Source: Synergistaceae bacterium (GTDB lineage: Bacteria; Synergistota; Synergistia; Synergistales; Synergistaceae). Taken from it: a stretch of DNA of 33,638 nucleotides. The DNA is taken from contig JAGPAO010000002.1 of assembly GCA_018063805.1 (NCBI GenBank), positions 1-33,638 of the forward strand, given 5' to 3'. Below are positions 7,053 through 17,591 of this stretch, one piece after another (position 1 is the stretch's first letter; every line of letters starts with the position of its first letter). The notes below the pieces were generated by a model that worked only from the letters and a program-made list of their open reading frames with translations, was not told the DNA's origin and did no database searches. Position numbers and translations under genes: made by a program.

Positions 7053-7094
7053 GGAAAAAGGAAATGAAATGACGTTTTTTTGAGGTGAATGCTG

Positions 7095-8195
7095 ATGGCC
7101 GAAACATTCGTTGCAGAGGAAGACAAGATCATTATCCGAGCGGGACACTCCCCGCTATGGTTCATTCCCGGAATCATCACATTCGGAATGATTCTATTGC
7201 CCTCTTTGATAGCGATTGTCTTTGCTGTCGTCTCAGATAATCCATCCAAAAACATGGTCCAAGGACTTATCGCACTCTTTTTTGTCATCCTTTGGCTCGC
7301 TTTTTCCACCCGGTTTTCAAGTTTTTTTCTTCTCATCTTTGGAATCGCCAACACCATCACCTTTGATTTTCCGAATCAATGCGTCTATCGCAAGGGCTTC
7401 TTCCTCACAAAAAAAATAGCGAATCTGTCACAAATCGACGATATTGTGCGCGTGGATCGCAGCGCTTGGATCTTCAAAAAAGCGTATTACAAGATCGTGA
7501 TGCATGAAAATCGTTTCGGCACAGGCATACGGATTACAAAGTTGTACACACCGTCCGACCCCGGGCTAGCCGAATTTGAACAGGAAATTCTGCCCCAAAT
7601 AATCAAACGCCGAATCAGAGTCCCCATTCAAAAGAGCTCCGTTTCGAGCTCACAAAAAAACTTCTTCCGCAAAGAAGGGGATTGTTACATAAAAAAATTT
7701 CGTACAAGTTTAGTTATCGTCAGCATTCTCCTGACTTACATGCTGTCGTTTCTCCTTTCGCTTTTAATACCCGATGAATCGATGACGCAGGATCACGTTT
7801 TTCTTTATCTGCTGCTGTTGGTAAATACATTCCTCTTCCTGACACTGCTGTTCCTCCCTCGGAAAATAATCATCGACACAGGAGCAAGAATGATATCCCG
7901 CTACACCGTCCTTGGGTTCCGGCGCAAAACAGCCTCTTTTGATAGGGTTAAGGAAATCTGCGTCATCCGCGCCAACTATGATTCCTGGTTCTTTAACAGC
8001 ACAGAAATTTGCCTGAGTATCTCCGGATTGAAAAGACCCATGCCCATTGCAACGCAGGTTTTACCCCAAAAGCTTGATACCCTCGCCGATGAATTGCCCA
8101 CTCTATTGGGAAAGTCTCTGCCGTTTGTATACCTGGATGCCAACAAAACCAGCCCCTTAACCCTGTTTGGCATAGACCCCAGAGGGAAAAGTTAA
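7095..8195 (+). CDS. Membrane protein with two PH-like (bPH2/YdbS-type) modules
   Basis: A 366-residue protein built as two similar halves. A pair of membrane segments (about residues 20-72) is followed by a beta-rich region (FPNQCVYRKGFFLTKK and on). A second pair of membrane segments (about 205-260) is followed by another beta-rich region (IIIDTGARMISRYTVLGFRR). This is the architecture of bacterial PH-domain membrane proteins such as YdbS/YdbT, whose role is unclear. ATG 7095 is preferred over ATG 7089 because GAGGTG at 7082-7087 is seven bases upstream of 7095 and nearly touches 7089. The last 75 codons recur as a decayed copy at about 17206-17440. Confidence 0.7.
   Translation: MAETFVAEEDKIIIRAGHSPLWFIPGIITFGMILLPSLIAIVFAVVSDNPSKNMVQGLIALFFVILWLAFSTRFSSFFLLIFGIANTITFDFPNQCVYRKGFFLTKKIANLSQIDDIVRVDRSAWIFKKAYYKIVMHENRFGTGIRITKLYTPSDPGLAEFEQEILPQIIKRRIRVPIQKSSVSSSQKNFFRKEGDCYIKKFRTSLVIVSILLTYMLSFLLSLLIPDESMTQDHVFLYLLLLVNTFLFLTLLFLPRKIIIDTGARMISRYTVLGFRRKTASFDRVKEICVIRANYDSWFFNSTEICLSISGLKRPMPIATQVLPQKLDTLADELPTLLGKSLPFVYLDANKTSPLTLFGIDPRGKS
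8051..8171 (+). repeat. Left copy of the direct repeat flanking the accessory block
   Basis: This stretch is the 3' part of the PH-like gene and matches 17290-17410 at a constant offset of 9,239 bases. I count about 14 mismatches in about 120 positions, roughly 88% identity. Weaker similarity extends left to about 7975 (17206-17214 in the other copy). Two importer operons and the double-cubane-type genes lie between the copies. Confidence 0.8.
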
Positions 8196-8234: not shown

Positions 8235-8263
8235 CTGACAACCCGGAGATTTTATGATATACT
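8235..8263 (+). promoter_or_regulatory. Sigma-70-type promoter of the NitT/TauT-DCCP operon
   Basis: CTGACA at 8235-8240 and TATACT at 8258-8263 are separated by exactly 17 bases, close to the vegetative consensus. Transcription should start near 8270, leaving a leader of about 290 nt before the binding-protein gene at 8558. Confidence 0.7.
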
Positions 8264-8557
8264 TTTACACCTATTATATTTCGGAAATTAAAGGAGGGAT
8301 GACGCAATGTACGCTTTTTCATGACGCTTGAACATTATGCACGGGGTGCATTACTGTGGTAAGTTTTTTATAGAAAAAGATGTTTTACATGCGGAGGTCC
8401 CTTTAGTTTCTGAATTAACCTATCAGACTCCCTAAAACATCTTTTTCCACTGTAGCAATTAACCCGTGAAGCGGTAAGACATACTTCTGTATGTCTTTGT
8501 TTGTTTGCTTGCTTGCTTGCTTGCTTGTGAAGAAAAGAAAAAGGAGTTTGATTAAAG
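8264..8557 (+). promoter_or_regulatory. Long structured 5' leader, candidate regulatory RNA
   Basis: This gene-free stretch holds several ordered elements. AAGGAGG at 8291-8297 precedes very short reading frames (ATG 8299, 10 codons; ATG 8307, 5 codons). A 6-bp hairpin ATGCAC-GGG-GTGCAT spans 8337-8351. A perfect 15-bp inverted repeat pairs 8373-8387 with 8433-8447, and GGAGGTC/GACTCC can pair inside it. A 9-bp hairpin (AAGACATAC/GTATGTCTT) spans 8476-8497 and runs into the T-rich tetranucleotide tract. The true ribosome-binding site, AAGGAG, is at 8541-8546. I do not recognise a known riboswitch class: TPP, T-box and guanidine consensus blocks are not seen. Confidence 0.45.
8496..8527 (+). 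repeat. Tetranucleotide tract (TTTG)3(CTTG)5
   Basis: Eight uninterrupted four-base units, three TTTG then five CTTG, lie 13 bases upstream of the AAGGAG ribosome-binding site of the binding-protein gene. The tract also forms the T-rich tail of the 8476-8497 hairpin. Such tracts can change length by slipped-strand mispairing. Here that would alter leader length and structure, not the reading frame. Confidence 0.9.
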
Positions 8558-9649
8558 ATGAAAAGATTTATGTTTACGTTGATGTTGTGCCTGTTTATCA
8601 CTATTCCAGTGTATGCGGCAGAGAAAAAAGTCCCCGTTATTCGTATGGCTTATGGTATGACAACGCATCAGCAAGGCTTTACCATCACCCTTCAAAAAGC
8701 TGAGGAGTTCAAGGATTTTGGCGTATACTTCAAGCCCGTTGTAGAAAAAGAAAAATACGATCTCTATAGGGGAAAAGAGCGAATCGCACGATTCGACATT
8801 ATTGTAACAAAGAGTGGAGCAGAAGCGGCGTCACTTTTTGCCCAAGGTCACCTTGATCTTACAACCAATTCATTTCCGGCAATGCTATCCGCAATTGATA
8901 ACGGCACACCGATTAAGGTATTAGCACCCATTCAAGCCGACGGTATTGCGATGGTTGGACGTATCGACTCTCCTGTAAAAGATTGGGATTCTCTCATGGC
9001 GTTTATCAAGGAAGCGAAGATGCCTGTCAAATTAGGTTATCATTCGCCAACCAGCGCCCCGAAAATTCTTATTGAAGCGGCTCTTTTTGAAGCAGGTTTG
9101 CGACTTACAGGTGACGCGAACGCGACGAAAAAAGAAGCTGACGTTCTCCTTGTGGACCTGAAAAGTGTTGCGAACTTCAATCCTGCTCTTACCTCTGGAC
9201 AGGTTGATTTTTGGGTGGCTCCCGCCCCAACCCCGCAAGTGGCGGTTTTGAAAAAACAGGGAAAAATGATTTTAGATCTTAAAACCCTTCCCCCTGCAGG
9301 AAAATGGGATCATTTTCCCTGTTGCGTAACAGCCGCGCATGTCAACATAATTGAGAAGTATCCGGAAGTTCTCAAAGCCTATATGGAGTTGCTGACGAAA
9401 TCCAGCGAGTGGTGTAACGCACACAAAGAAGAAGCAGATAAACTTTCCGCTGTATGGTTTGGCGTTCCAGTCGAGGCGACCAGGATGTCCCAGATGACAT
9501 TCTCAACAGACCCCAATGAAAAATGGTTTCGTAACGCCTCCCTGTATCCCGACATGCTGAACAAGATGAAACAGTTTAAAAATCACCTTAAGGGTAAAAA
9601 ATTGGAAGAGAGTAAAGACCTCGTCTTCGACTTCCGTTTTGTTAAATAG
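8558..9649 (+). CDS. NitT/TauT-type ABC substrate-binding protein
   Basis: An exported binding protein of 363 residues. The signal peptide is clear: Lys-Arg, then a hydrophobic run, then PVYA with likely cleavage before AEKK (about residue 21). There is no lipobox, so it should be soluble in the periplasm. The mature part resembles the SsuA/TauA/NMT1-like family: IRMAYGMTTHQQGFT near the start, GHLDLTTNSFPAMLSAI near residue 90, KLGYHSPTSAPKILIEAALFEAG near 155-178 and GQVDFWVAPAPTPQV near 215. These families bind small organic anions (sulfonates, nitrate) or pyrimidine precursors. AAGGAG lies 11 bases before the ATG. The permease and ATPase genes follow, then a metalloenzyme pair, so the ligand may be that enzyme's substrate (inference). 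Confidence 0.85.
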   Translation: MKRFMFTLMLCLFITIPVYAAEKKVPVIRMAYGMTTHQQGFTITLQKAEEFKDFGVYFKPVVEKEKYDLYRGKERIARFDIIVTKSGAEAASLFAQGHLDLTTNSFPAMLSAIDNGTPIKVLAPIQADGIAMVGRIDSPVKDWDSLMAFIKEAKMPVKLGYHSPTSAPKILIEAALFEAGLRLTGDANATKKEADVLLVDLKSVANFNPALTSGQVDFWVAPAPTPQVAVLKKQGKMILDLKTLPPAGKWDHFPCCVTAAHVNIIEKYPEVLKAYMELLTKSSEWCNAHKEEADKLSAVWFGVPVEATRMSQMTFSTDPNEKWFRNASLYPDMLNKMKQFKNHLKGKKLEESKDLVFDFRFVK

Positions 9650-9676: not shown

Positions 9677-10513
9677 ATGAACAGATACTTTTACCAAGGT
9701 ACTTTGCCGTTGGTTGCCCCATTTCTATTTCTAATATTTTGGCATTACTCGTCTTTGCGGGTAGACAACCCTGTCGTATTGCCGCAAATCAGAGACGTAG
9801 TGTCGATATTGTTCCGTCCTACAGAGGATCTTTTGAATATGGGTTCCTTGATTAGGAATGTGTCCGTTAGTTTTATCCGTGTATTTGGAGGGTATTTTAT
9901 AGCTGTTGCTATTGCCCTCCCACTAGGTCTTGCTATGGGGTACTGGAGTAAGCTCCATCGGATGCTGAGTTTACTAATAGGCATCTTTCGCCCTATACCT
10001 CCGTTATCCTGGATTCCACTCGTCTTGGCTTGGTTTGGTGTCGCCAGCCTGGCAACAGTTATCGGAATCGAGGAAGGAGCATGGTATCCCTTTTTCAGTA
10101 ACATCAAACTTTCTATGCTGTTCATCATTTTTATCGGAGCTTTTTTCCCCATTCTGGTAAATACCATAGGAGGTGTTCAAAGCGTTAGAGAGACGTTGAT
10201 TGACGCAGCGAAAGTATTGGGGGCGTCTCAATATCAAATACTACGCTACGTTGTTCTTCCTTATGCTGCACCACAGGTTTTTACAGGCCTTAGGGTTGGC
10301 CTTGGTGTAGCGTGGATGTGTCTGGTTTCCGCTGAAATGATGCCCGGCAGTATTTCTGGAGTCGGTTACCTAATAACACACGCTTATACCGTCGCGCAGA
10401 CGGATATCGTGATTGCCGGGATGATCACCATTGGTGTGACGGGTGTCTTGATTGATACGGTATTCGTATTGATTGAGCACCGCGCCTTCCAGTGGCAAAA
10501 ACTCTACAGGTGA
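9677..10513 (+). CDS. NitT/TauT-type ABC permease (SsuC/TauC-like)
   Basis: An inner-membrane permease of 278 residues with about six hydrophobic segments, the normal size for SsuC/TauC. The ATPase-contact EAA loop is visible as DAAKVLGASQYQILRYVVLP (about residues 176-195). FRPIPPLSWIPLVLAWFG is the conserved segment seen in nitrate/sulfonate permeases. It starts 27 bases after the binding-protein gene. Its stop (TGA 10511-10513) lies inside the ribosome-binding site of the ATPase gene, so their translation is linked. Confidence 0.9.
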   Translation: MNRYFYQGTLPLVAPFLFLIFWHYSSLRVDNPVVLPQIRDVVSILFRPTEDLLNMGSLIRNVSVSFIRVFGGYFIAVAIALPLGLAMGYWSKLHRMLSLLIGIFRPIPPLSWIPLVLAWFGVASLATVIGIEEGAWYPFFSNIKLSMLFIIFIGAFFPILVNTIGGVQSVRETLIDAAKVLGASQYQILRYVVLPYAAPQVFTGLRVGLGVAWMCLVSAEMMPGSISGVGYLITHAYTVAQTDIVIAGMITIGVTGVLIDTVFVLIEHRAFQWQKLYR

Positions 10514-10517
10514 TGAT

Positions 10518-11282
10518 GTGACGAATAATAATTTGCTTGAAACTCAAGGATTGAACAAAACATTCACGACAGACAAAGGAGAAAACGTCGATGCGCTCTA
10601 TGACGTTAACCTTGTAGTAAAGCCAAATGAGTTTGTCTGTATTGTAGGTCCGTCTGGATGCGGAAAATCTACACTTCTGCGGATATTGGCAGGTCTGGAA
10701 GCACCTTCTAGTGGGAGAGTTCTTCTAAAAGGTACTGAAATAACCGGGCCGGGACGTGAGCGAGGCATGGTTTTTCAGGAATATTCTTTGATGCCATGGC
10801 GTAATGTTGAGGAAAACATCTGGATGGGACCTCAGCTTTTCGGTAAATCAAAAGACGATTGCAGAGCAATTGCCAGGAAGTATATAGAACTAGTTAAGCT
10901 GAATGGTTTTGAGCGAGCCCTGCCACATGAGCTTTCTGGAGGAATGAGGCAGCGTGTGGCAATTGCCCGTGCTCTAGCAAACGATCCAGAAATTTTGTTG
11001 ATGGATGAACCGTTTGGTGCTCTGGATTCTTATACAAGGATTATCCTGCAAAAAGAACTGCTTAAAATTTGGCAGGCGAATCGAAAAACGGTTTTGTTCA
11101 TAACGCACAGCGTTGATGAAGCGGTTTTTTTAGCTGACCGCGTTGTCGTCATGTCGGCACGCCCAGGTAAGGTTGTGCTGGAGGAATTCTTGGATATTCC
11201 TCACCCGAGAAAAAGAGATAACCCTCTTTACGCCAAAACTCTGGAAAAAATTTTGGAACTTCTGGAGAACGAACAGTCGTGA
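10518..11282 (+). CDS. NitT/TauT-type ABC ATPase (SsuB/TauB-like)
   Basis: A single-domain cytoplasmic ATPase of 254 residues. It has Walker A GPSGCGKST, a Q-loop in MVFQEYSLMPWRNV, signature LSGGMRQRVAIARAL, Walker B LLMDEPFGALD and the H-loop THSVDEAVFLADRVVVM, the set expected for SsuB/TauB. GTG 10518 is chosen because AGGTGAT (10508-10514) sits just upstream. The alternative TTG at 10473 lies inside the permease gene and would add residues unlike the family. The gene belongs to the operon 8558-13234. Confidence 0.92.
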   Translation: MTNNNLLETQGLNKTFTTDKGENVDALYDVNLVVKPNEFVCIVGPSGCGKSTLLRILAGLEAPSSGRVLLKGTEITGPGRERGMVFQEYSLMPWRNVEENIWMGPQLFGKSKDDCRAIARKYIELVKLNGFERALPHELSGGMRQRVAIARALANDPEILLMDEPFGALDSYTRIILQKELLKIWQANRKTVLFITHSVDEAVFLADRVVVMSARPGKVVLEEFLDIPHPRKRDNPLYAKTLEKILELLENEQS

Positions 11283-11315
11283 GCAAGGTACCATGCTTTG
11301 AAAGGAGAATGTAGT

Positions 11316-12464
11316 ATGCACAATATAGACGCAATGCTGGATAAAATGCGAGATGAGAGCCTGGAAGCAGCGGTTGTTATCAAAGAAGCTAAAGACGTAG
11401 GCCAACGGGTACTGGGAACCTATTGCGTATTTACTCCCGTCGAGATCATTCGTGCTACTGGTGCCTGGGCGGTCTCTCTTTGCAGCAAGAAAGCCGATCC
11501 GATCCCAGCCGCAGAGGAGCATCTACCCCGCAATCTCTGCCCCTTGATTAAGGCCAGTTACGGTTATGCCTATACGGATACATGCCCATATTTTTTTCTG
11601 TCCGACGCGGTAATAGGGGAGACAACCTGCGACGGCAAGAAAAAGATGTACGAGTATCTTAACCGAATCAAGCCTGTTCATGTTATGCAGCTTCCTCAGA
11701 CCTTGGATGATTCCGCTATTTTCCAATGGCGCGAATCCGTTTTAAAAATGTCGACCTGGCTGGAAGAGTTTTATGGCATAAAAATAACGGAGGATAATCT
11801 TTCCAAAGCCATTCGCGAGGGCAATGCGGAAAGAAAAGCGCTGAACGAATTCTTCGCCCTGTCAAAACTTGATCCGGCTCCCGTAACAGGATTGGAAATA
11901 ATGATGGTCTCCGATTGGACGAGGCTAATCTATGATCCGAATGAAATTGTACGTCGATTGCATGAACTGACAAATGCGATTCGTGAGAATTATGAGAACG
12001 GAGAGCGCAGAACCGCAGCAGATCGCAAGAGAATTCTGGTTACAGGCTGCCCGCTCGGCAAGGCAGTAGAAAAGACCATTGTCGCAATCGAAGAAAATGG
12101 CGGGACCGTCGTGTGTTACGACAACTGCGGCCATTACAAGGGGACGTTGGAGATGGTGGACGAAACCCAAGACCCACTCGAGGCGATTGCGGACAAATAC
12201 ATGCATACAGCGTGTTCGGTAATCAGCCCCAATGATCGGCGCATGAATATTCTCTCGCGATTTGCTGACGAATATCAAATCGACGGCGTTGTCGACATCG
12301 TATTACAGGCCTGTCATACCTATGCGATTGAGACCATGAGAGTACGGGAAACGATGAATAATAAGGGGAATATCCCCTATATCTCCATCGAAACCGATTA
12401 CTACCAAGGCGACACAGAACAGCTCTCGACAAGAATGGGCGCGTTCATGGAAATGATGAGTTAG
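11316..12464 (+). CDS. yjiM: YjiM-like double-cubane-cluster/2-hydroxyacyl-CoA dehydratase-family protein
   Basis: A 382-residue member of the HgdB/BcrB/BzdO superfamily, in the stand-alone branch containing E. coli YjiM and the double-cubane-cluster protein (DCCP). Cysteines likely to bind iron-sulfur clusters are C37 (GTYCVFTP), C75 (LPRNLCPLI), C105 (GETTCDGKKK) and C333 (VLQACHTYAIE), with C271 and C300 nearby (DNCGHYKG, HTACSVISPND). True dehydratases need two such subunits; only one is encoded here, as for DCCP. DCCP is reported to use ATP-driven electrons from its partner to reduce small molecules, and its natural substrate is unknown. AAAGGAGA is eight bases before ATG 11316. The partner ATPase follows by five bases and an importer precedes it, so a role in transforming the imported compound is inferred. 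Confidence 0.85.
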   Translation: MHNIDAMLDKMRDESLEAAVVIKEAKDVGQRVLGTYCVFTPVEIIRATGAWAVSLCSKKADPIPAAEEHLPRNLCPLIKASYGYAYTDTCPYFFLSDAVIGETTCDGKKKMYEYLNRIKPVHVMQLPQTLDDSAIFQWRESVLKMSTWLEEFYGIKITEDNLSKAIREGNAERKALNEFFALSKLDPAPVTGLEIMMVSDWTRLIYDPNEIVRRLHELTNAIRENYENGERRTAADRKRILVTGCPLGKAVEKTIVAIEENGGTVVCYDNCGHYKGTLEMVDETQDPLEAIADKYMHTACSVISPNDRRMNILSRFADEYQIDGVVDIVLQACHTYAIETMRVRETMNNKGNIPYISIETDYYQGDTEQLSTRMGAFMEMMS

Positions 12465-12469
12465 GGAAG

Positions 12470-13234
12470 ATGGATATTTTGACAGCAGGATTGGACATCG
12501 GTTCTGTTGGCGTCAAGGCCGTTTTAATGAAGAATGGACAGATAGTATCCACTGTTTTAATGCCTACCGGATGGAATCCTGGGGATAGCGGAGAAAAAGC
12601 AATGCATCAGTTATTCGATGTGGCAGGGATTCATCAGGAGGATGTGACCTATACCATTGCTACGGGTTACGGGCGAAAGGCATTCAAAAGAGCAAACAAG
12701 TATATTACTGAAATAACGTGCCATGCGATTGGAGCAAGATATCTCTTTCCAGAAGTAAATGCAATTCTTGATATCGGGGGACAAGACAGCAAGGCGATTC
12801 GCCTTGGCGAGGCAGGAGAAATCCTGGACTTTCTTATGAACGATAAATGTGCGGCAGGAACCGGAAGATTTTTAGAATCGATGGCAATTTTGCTGGAATA
12901 CGAATTCAAGGATTTCAGCGAATTGCCGTGCGGCATAGAGCCTCACCGCATATCAAGTATGTGTACTGTCTTTGCGGAAAGCGAGGTCATCGGCCTTCTA
13001 GCGAAGGGTATCGACAAGCAATCTATCGCACTCGGTCTATTGGATTCAATTGCCTCCAGAGCCGAAGGAATGATTAAAAGACTCGGTGGAAACGGCCCCA
13101 TTGTCTTTACCGGAGGTTTGTCAAAGAGTAAAAATCTAGTTGCATTTCTTGAAAAAAGACTCACGCGAACGGTCCTCTGCAGTGAAATGTCTCAGTTTGC
13201 CGGGGCAATTGGTGCCGCATTGCTCGGCGAATAG
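12470..13234 (+). CDS. yjiL: YjiL/HgdC-type ATPase, reductive activator of the YjiM-like protein
   Basis: A 254-residue BadF/BadG/BcrA/BcrD-family ATPase (ASKHA fold). The nucleotide-binding blocks are LDIGSVGVKAVLM (residues 8-20), DIGGQDSKAI (101-110) and the late VFTGGLSKSKNL. C127 (NDKCAAGTG) and C165 (SSMCTVFAESE) match the two cysteines that hold a single [4Fe-4S] cluster at the interface of the activator dimer. By family knowledge it couples ATP hydrolysis to one-electron transfer into the partner metalloprotein encoded immediately upstream. The size is normal for a one-domain activator. No dedicated ferredoxin gene is nearby, so the electron donor must come from elsewhere. Confidence 0.9.
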   Translation: MDILTAGLDIGSVGVKAVLMKNGQIVSTVLMPTGWNPGDSGEKAMHQLFDVAGIHQEDVTYTIATGYGRKAFKRANKYITEITCHAIGARYLFPEVNAILDIGGQDSKAIRLGEAGEILDFLMNDKCAAGTGRFLESMAILLEYEFKDFSELPCGIEPHRISSMCTVFAESEVIGLLAKGIDKQSIALGLLDSIASRAEGMIKRLGGNGPIVFTGGLSKSKNLVAFLEKRLTRTVLCSEMSQFAGAIGAALLGE

Positions 13235-17057: not shown

Positions 17058-17178
17058 AAATAGCTTTAAACAATAGCGAGCTCTCCTTTAGAATATCGGA
17101 TCATCAGTAAAAAGTCGCTAAAAATCAGGGGATAACCAACCGAATATCTGTAAACCATCAAAATGTGATGTGCAATTC

Positions 17179-17210
17179 AAAAAGAGTGCGGGCAAAACAC
17201 CCGCCCGCAC
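17179..17210 (-). terminator. Minus-strand terminator-like hairpin inside the remnant
   Basis: GTGCGGGC (17186-17193) pairs with GCCCGCAC (17203-17210) over a nine-base loop. On the minus strand the stem is followed by TCTTTTT. No minus-strand gene ends nearby; the nearest one stops about 1 kb to the right. It may be a relic of lost DNA. Confidence 0.4.
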
Positions 17211-17289
17211 GAACCTATGCCTCCTGGCTATTCAATAATACGGCAATCGGCTTGGGTATCTCCGGTGAGCAGAGGGGCATGCCGATCAT

Positions 17290-17410
17290 AACGCAGGTTT
17301 TATCCCAAAAGCTTGATACCCTCGCCGATGAATTGCCCGCGCTATTGGGAAAACCACTGCCGTTTGTATACCTGGACGCCAACAAAACCAGCCCCTTTGT
17401 CTTGTTGGGC
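17290..17410 (+). repeat. Right copy of the direct repeat flanking the accessory block
   Basis: This is the partner of 8051-8171 at an offset of 9,239 bases with about 88% identity. Recombination between the copies would delete or amplify the intervening importer and metalloenzyme genes and leave one intact PH-like 3' end. Confidence 0.8.
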
Positions 17411-17591
17411 ATCGATCCGGAGCGACGGAAAGAATCCACAGGAGAAGCTGCAGGGAAGATGGATGAAAGACCACGAGCAAAAAAACAGGTAAAATAGGCT
17501 GGTGGAGTATACTATTTTAATGGGCAAGATTACGCCGTTAAAATTCAGCCATGAGTTACTATTTAAGAATAATCTTAGAATGAGGTGCGAA

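Follow-up and report, generated by a model that had tools for sequence, protein, structure and literature searches.

The importer-DCCP operon of a Synergistaceae contig is preceded by a leader that probably ties operon expression to the decoding of selenocysteine (Sec). In the window (the whole stretch of 33,638 nucleotides analysed here), the leader contains a short ORF with an in-frame UGA and, closely behind it, a SECIS-like hairpin (Table 1). The same UGA-hairpin anatomy recurs before known selenium genes across Synergistota, so the leader is probably a switch that reads selenium supply during translation. The selenocysteine-decoding leader ORF would let operon expression follow Sec-tRNA, SelB, and selenium, and the shared device would amount to a translation-based selenium regulon. 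That the UGA is decoded as Sec, and that its decoding regulates the operon, we infer from comparison of the sequences.

The original prediction of an undescribed, uORF-based cis-regulatory leader ahead of the importer-DCCP operon is supported, and the leader is conserved. The promoter named there is present; it matches 10 of the 12 hexamer positions and ranks top of the 7 promoter-like sites in 2 kb (shuffled sequences give 3.0 +/- 1.6). The perfect 15-bp repeat, whose 3' arm begins at the leader-ORF stop codon, the hairpin at 8476-8497, and further inverted repeats are all found as well. The region 8264-8560 folds at -84.9 kcal/mol compared with -63.6 kcal/mol for shuffled sequences (z -4.4), beating 200 of 200 shuffles. 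A mini-ORF with a strong ribosome-binding site had also been described. The ORF stands, with its start moved to ATG 8307 and its frame extended through the UGA to the TAA at 8433-8435. ATG 8307 lies 9 nt from AAGGAGG and fits better than ATG 8299-8301, which is disfavoured because it is too near the Shine-Dalgarno (SD) sequence.

Table 1. Features of the leader and of the operon behind it (positions in the window)
Feature	Position	Strand	Basis
Sigma-70-type promoter CTGACA-17-TATACT, TG ahead of -10	8235-8263	+	Promoter scan
Leader-ORF SD AAAGGAGGG	8290-8298	+	Sequence
Leader ORF MYAFS-U-RLNIMHGVHYCGKFFIEKDVLHAEVPLVSELTYQTP, 42 codons if UGA is read, stop TAA 8433-8435	8307-8435	+	Same anatomy in 59 further leaders
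In-frame UGA, sixth codon, proposed selenocysteine codon	8322-8324	+	TGA in 54/54 and 59/59 leaders
SECIS-like hairpin ATGCAC-GGG-GTGCAT, 12 nt past UGA	8337-8351	+	Geometry as in selD SECIS of the same phylum
Perfect 15-bp inverted repeat 8373-8387/8433-8447	8373-8447	+	Repeat search
Possible anti-SD within the final leader-ORF codons, pairs with 8543-8552	8422-8431	+	Pairing search
Weak terminator-like hairpin AAGACATAC-TTCT-GTATGTCTT, T-rich tail	8476-8497	+	Promoter/terminator and repeat searches
Tandem TTTG/CTTG tetranucleotides separating hairpin and importer SD	8498-8529	+	Sequence, repeat search
SD of importer binding protein, AAGGAG	8541-8546	+	Sequence
NMT1/SsuA-like substrate-binding protein	8558-9649	+	Profile matches
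ABC permease, nearest model SaoP, below cut-off	9677-10513	+	Profile matches
ABC ATPase, nearest model SaoA, below cut-off	10473-11282	+	Profile matches
Double-cubane-cluster reductase (NF040772, above cut-off)	11313-12464	+	Profile matches
BadF/activase of double-cubane protein	12470-13234	+	Profile matches

The terminator-like hairpin, present as predicted, is weak, with 3 G-C pairs and a G that interrupts its T-tract. This hairpin and the 15-bp stem had been taken as the key parts of the leader. They are rejected as its conserved core, because the segment of the stem is missing from the leader (L039/L262) of the nearest relative in which the leader is readable (binding protein 74% identical). 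The conserved element is instead the UGA together with the hairpin at 8337-8351.

The tetranucleotide repeat at 8498-8529 has counterparts among the leaders L002-L007, L019, L023, L025, and L027. In family relatives, (GCTT)n tracts of 28-112 nt are found at many loci, where they often adjoin or overlap the predicted start of an ORF on the opposite strand. This suggests slipped-strand (phase-variable) loci.

Rfam gives no match to the window leader above the gathering score, in agreement with the original prediction, which recognised no known class. Used whole as a BLAST query in the family, the leader DNA returns mostly microsatellite matches, and the remainder are short chance matches. Upstream of binding-protein orthologues, however, seven Synergistota genomes (the window included) share an SD, a start, a few codons, an in-frame TGA, and a hairpin. 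A first covariance model built from these seven leaders finds further copies, in many cases several in one genome, and also ahead of other operons. An improved model gives 138 matches, which come from 74 of the 188 Synergistota genomes. The leader unit can be described as SD, start, 2-11 codons, UGA, 10-19 nt, a hairpin with a G-first loop, and an open frame. A second copy exists in the window's own assembly (L322, G000:C50:13884-13958), 125 nt ahead of yedE and a TusA-like gene. To avoid circularity, the 188 genomes were also searched with a pattern of the hairpin only, which gives 67 matches in 41 genomes versus 8 for the reversed pattern. About ten of the matches, most of them apparently due to chance, lack the SD-start-TGA arrangement and were set aside.

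The spread of the element was also followed with a model-free scan ahead of yedE. The architecture is found in 14 of 30 Synergistota genomes versus 1% of random windows, and in 2 of 30 when TAA or TAG replaces TGA. The stems of these yedE leaders are unrelated in sequence (e.g., GGATGCGG/CCGCATTC, GTGCGCGC/GCGCGCAC, and GGGTCCA/TGGACCT), which is no independent proof of pairing since the scan itself requires a hairpin. Outside Synergistota, 2 of 24 yedE genes have the start-UGA-hairpin arrangement, both in Desulfovibrio: L434 (Desulfovibrio piger) and L435, with stems GCTTCAC/GTGGAGC and GCTTCAT/ATGGAGC, respectively. No binding-protein homologue of Desulfovibrio and Clostridia has the hairpin pattern upstream, and model R2 gives only weak matches that are not leader-like in 34 non-Synergistota genomes.

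Among the 66 hairpin-only matches outside the window, 54 have an SD and a start followed by a stop, and this stop is TGA in all 54. In the 59 distinct leaders, the first stop is TGA without exception, whereas all three codons are used as second stop of these ORFs (TGA 25, TAA 23, TAG 11). For 50 representatives the difference from this second-stop control has a p of about 1e-19, an optimistic value as relatedness among leaders is ignored. Beyond the TGA the frame stays open in all 59. All 50 representatives have at least 16 open codons there, which is true of 40 and 21 of them in the two alternative frames (p 6e-9, kinship ignored). Ribosomes are therefore expected to pass the UGA. The codon just ahead of the UGA encodes Thr in 38 of the 59 distinct leaders. 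ACG (21), ACC (9), and ACA (8) are all used, so Thr is kept at the amino-acid level.

The hairpin resembles a SECIS. Missing conservation or missing covariation would have counted against the original prediction, but both are found. In the stem, both sides have changed in 4 of the 6 pairs, and the covariation score is reached by 0 of 500 shuffles. All 21 distinct hairpin sequences begin their loop with G, and the gap between UGA and hairpin is 10-19 nt across leaders. The selD genes of Synergistota, which are mostly UGA genes themselves, have a SECIS of the same build (TGA, 11-13 nt, a stem of 6-7 bp, and a GGC or GGA loop). All three phases of the hairpin relative to the ORF occur among the leaders, implying that it is conserved as RNA and not as peptide.

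These phases bear on another use of a decoded UGA, namely the production of a small selenopeptide acting in trans, which might bind or reduce the imported compound, with regulation secondary or absent. Such a product would account for the frame kept open past the UGA, for the stop positions that agree among close relatives, and for synonymous changes within an HYC/HDC motif of several leaders. The peptide is, however, not conserved across leaders, and the phase in which the hairpin is read varies. Close relatives L032 and L033 differ mainly by substitutions that change amino acids, and the leader unit precedes many different operons. We consider a selenopeptide acting in trans unlikely and favour selenocysteine decoding as the sensing step of a regulatory leader.

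Selenium genes are among those directly after the leaders. One is yedF (TIGR03527), and another is yedE (TIGR04112), which encodes a putative selenium transporter and is accompanied by a TusA-like gene. A SclA-like cysteine desulfurase/selenocysteine lyase, saoT, and DCCP together with its activase follow leaders as well. Importers (PstS-like and NMT1/SaoP-like), TVP38-type proteins along with a transglutaminase-like one, a TorD-like gene with a molybdo-oxidoreductase, and a MoeA/MoaA cluster are also found in this position. Downstream names for which there is no NCBIfam match were read from the sequences. Some of the leader-bearing genes have no known link to selenium (e.g., the gcvT region and sugar-binding proteins). 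For YedE, YedF, and DCCP/activase, gene context had already pointed to selenium (PMC5322559, PMC10418091). selB is found above cut-off in 43 of the 47 genomes with strong leaders versus 86 of the 141 others. In the window's own assembly, which is 65.7% complete, neither selB nor selD is seen.

Divergent leaders in head-to-head arrangement are found at L335, L341, L346, and L348 (genomes G123, G138, G121, and G139, respectively). One leader of each pair lies ahead of TorD-like and molybdo-oxidoreductase genes and the other ahead of transglutaminase-like and TVP38-type genes. The genes of these pairs are candidates for the handling of selenium oxyanions.

A SECIS-like hairpin in the leader of a selenium gene would also be expected if it were a repressor site for SelB-Sec-tRNA and the UGA merely a stop. 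The E. coli selA leader is a precedent, a SelB-responsive SECIS-like element of the selAB leader having reportedly been described by Thanbichler and Boeck in 2002. For the Synergistota leaders this is very unlikely, as the UGA is invariant, its spacing to the hairpin is fixed, the ORF is well initiated, and the frame beyond is open in every leader. The UGA might otherwise be an ordinary stop with special termination properties, followed by a pause hairpin. UGA is the codon of RF2, its termination efficiency depends on context, and Thr often stands ahead of it. The selenium genes downstream, the SECIS geometry, the open frame, and the co-occurrence with selB make this extremely improbable.

With the UGA as selenocysteine codon of the window's leader ORF, acting with the SECIS hairpin 12 nt behind it, the switch would work as follows. 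When Sec-tRNA and SelB are scarce, the ribosome would terminate or pause at the UGA, six codons into the ORF. When selenium is present, selenocysteine would be inserted, about 36 more codons would be translated, and the ribosome would sweep the RNA downstream. The outcome between decoding and termination would depend on Sec-tRNA and SelB and, therefore, on selenium. This choice would set expression of the operon, and the importer and the double-cubane reductase would respond to selenium.

Two outputs may be considered in the window: the terminator hairpin at 8476-8497, or masking of the SD region of the importer (8543-8552) by 8422-8431. If the SD is masked, read-through of the UGA would favour expression; under classical termination attenuation, it would oppose expression. 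The masking pair has -14.4 kcal/mol (best-anywhere p 0.03) and is specific to the window, not conserved family-wide. Terminators are found in 17 of 60 sister leaders versus 4.4 expected. An anti-SD at the end of the ORF is rejected as a general feature (19 of 71 leaders versus 14.1 expected), and so is pairing between the loop and downstream sequence as a general antiterminator, which shows no enrichment among leaders. The earlier idea, that the leader is a riboswitch binding the imported compound or a classical attenuator for it of the amino-acid type, is scarcely credible in spite of the strong folding and the terminator-like hairpin: Rfam is without a match, what leaders of very different operons have in common is a 6-bp hairpin and no conserved structure of aptamer size, and nothing points to a ligand-binding riboswitch.

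It is likely that these leaders form a widespread selenium-sensing class with a recoded UGA and its own SECIS in a short leader ORF, whose regulon of genes for taking up and handling selenium extends across Synergistota and reaches Desulfovibrio, and that they mark unassigned ABC importers, TVP38-type membrane proteins, and molybdo-oxidoreductases as selenium genes. As a regulon marker, the element would link importers (that of the window operon, PstS-like, and NMT1-like), double-cubane reductases, TVP38-type proteins, and TorD/molybdo-oxidoreductase pairs to selenium, making the substrates of the linked genes directly testable. A selenium leader would imply that the compound imported by the window operon relates to selenium. 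The original suggestion that the leader could reveal the substrate is thus upheld in that it can indicate it, but the sensed factor seems to be selenium status through selenocysteine decoding and not the imported molecule directly. Note that such leader ORFs would escape gene finders that take UGA as a stop. In the open-access literature, no published precedent was found for selenocysteine decoding as the sensor in a bacterial regulatory leader.

The binding protein of the window operon shares 84% and 74% identity with those of Fretibacterium-type genomes of another family (f6), but at most 55% with any within the assembly's own family (f1). This may reflect horizontal transfer or a misbinned contig. 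A 110-aa ORF (17165-17497) resembles the C-terminal third of the 368-aa ORF at 7089-8195, and these two partial copies bracket the importer-DCCP operon together with a sugar ABC system. The block between them looks as though recombination had inserted it. At L042 (genome G164), a binding-protein homologue has an in-frame TAA, probably because the gene is broken or wrongly assembled.

The leaders share features with several known systems. Like the leader-peptide attenuators of trp, his, and cys, they have a short translated ORF with a diagnostic codon ahead of genes for the same nutrient, and terminator-like hairpins in part of the set. They differ in that a single, putatively recoded stop, in need of its own hairpin and SelB, takes the place of a codon run, and in that the downstream switch is not conserved. 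With the SECIS of fdhF and selD they have in common a UGA followed after a short gap by a stem-loop with a G-first loop, in the geometry of the phylum's own selD, but the leader hairpin sits in an ORF of 20-110 codons without a conserved protein product, ahead of another gene. The SelB element of E. coli selAB is likewise a SECIS-like hairpin in a selenium-gene leader and reportedly reads Sec-tRNA/SelB. It is not known to have a UGA leader ORF, whereas the Synergistota leaders keep both UGA and frame. Finally, a resemblance to the Sao (selenocysteine-assisted organometal) systems lies in SaoP and SaoA, which are among the best NCBIfam models of the window permease and ATPase, and in the leaders that precede saoT. 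The window importer, however, is far below the Sao cut-offs (SaoX, SaoP, and SaoA give 27, 161, and 251 bits for cut-offs of 300, 295, and 360, none of which is reached), and its operon carries DCCP and activase instead.
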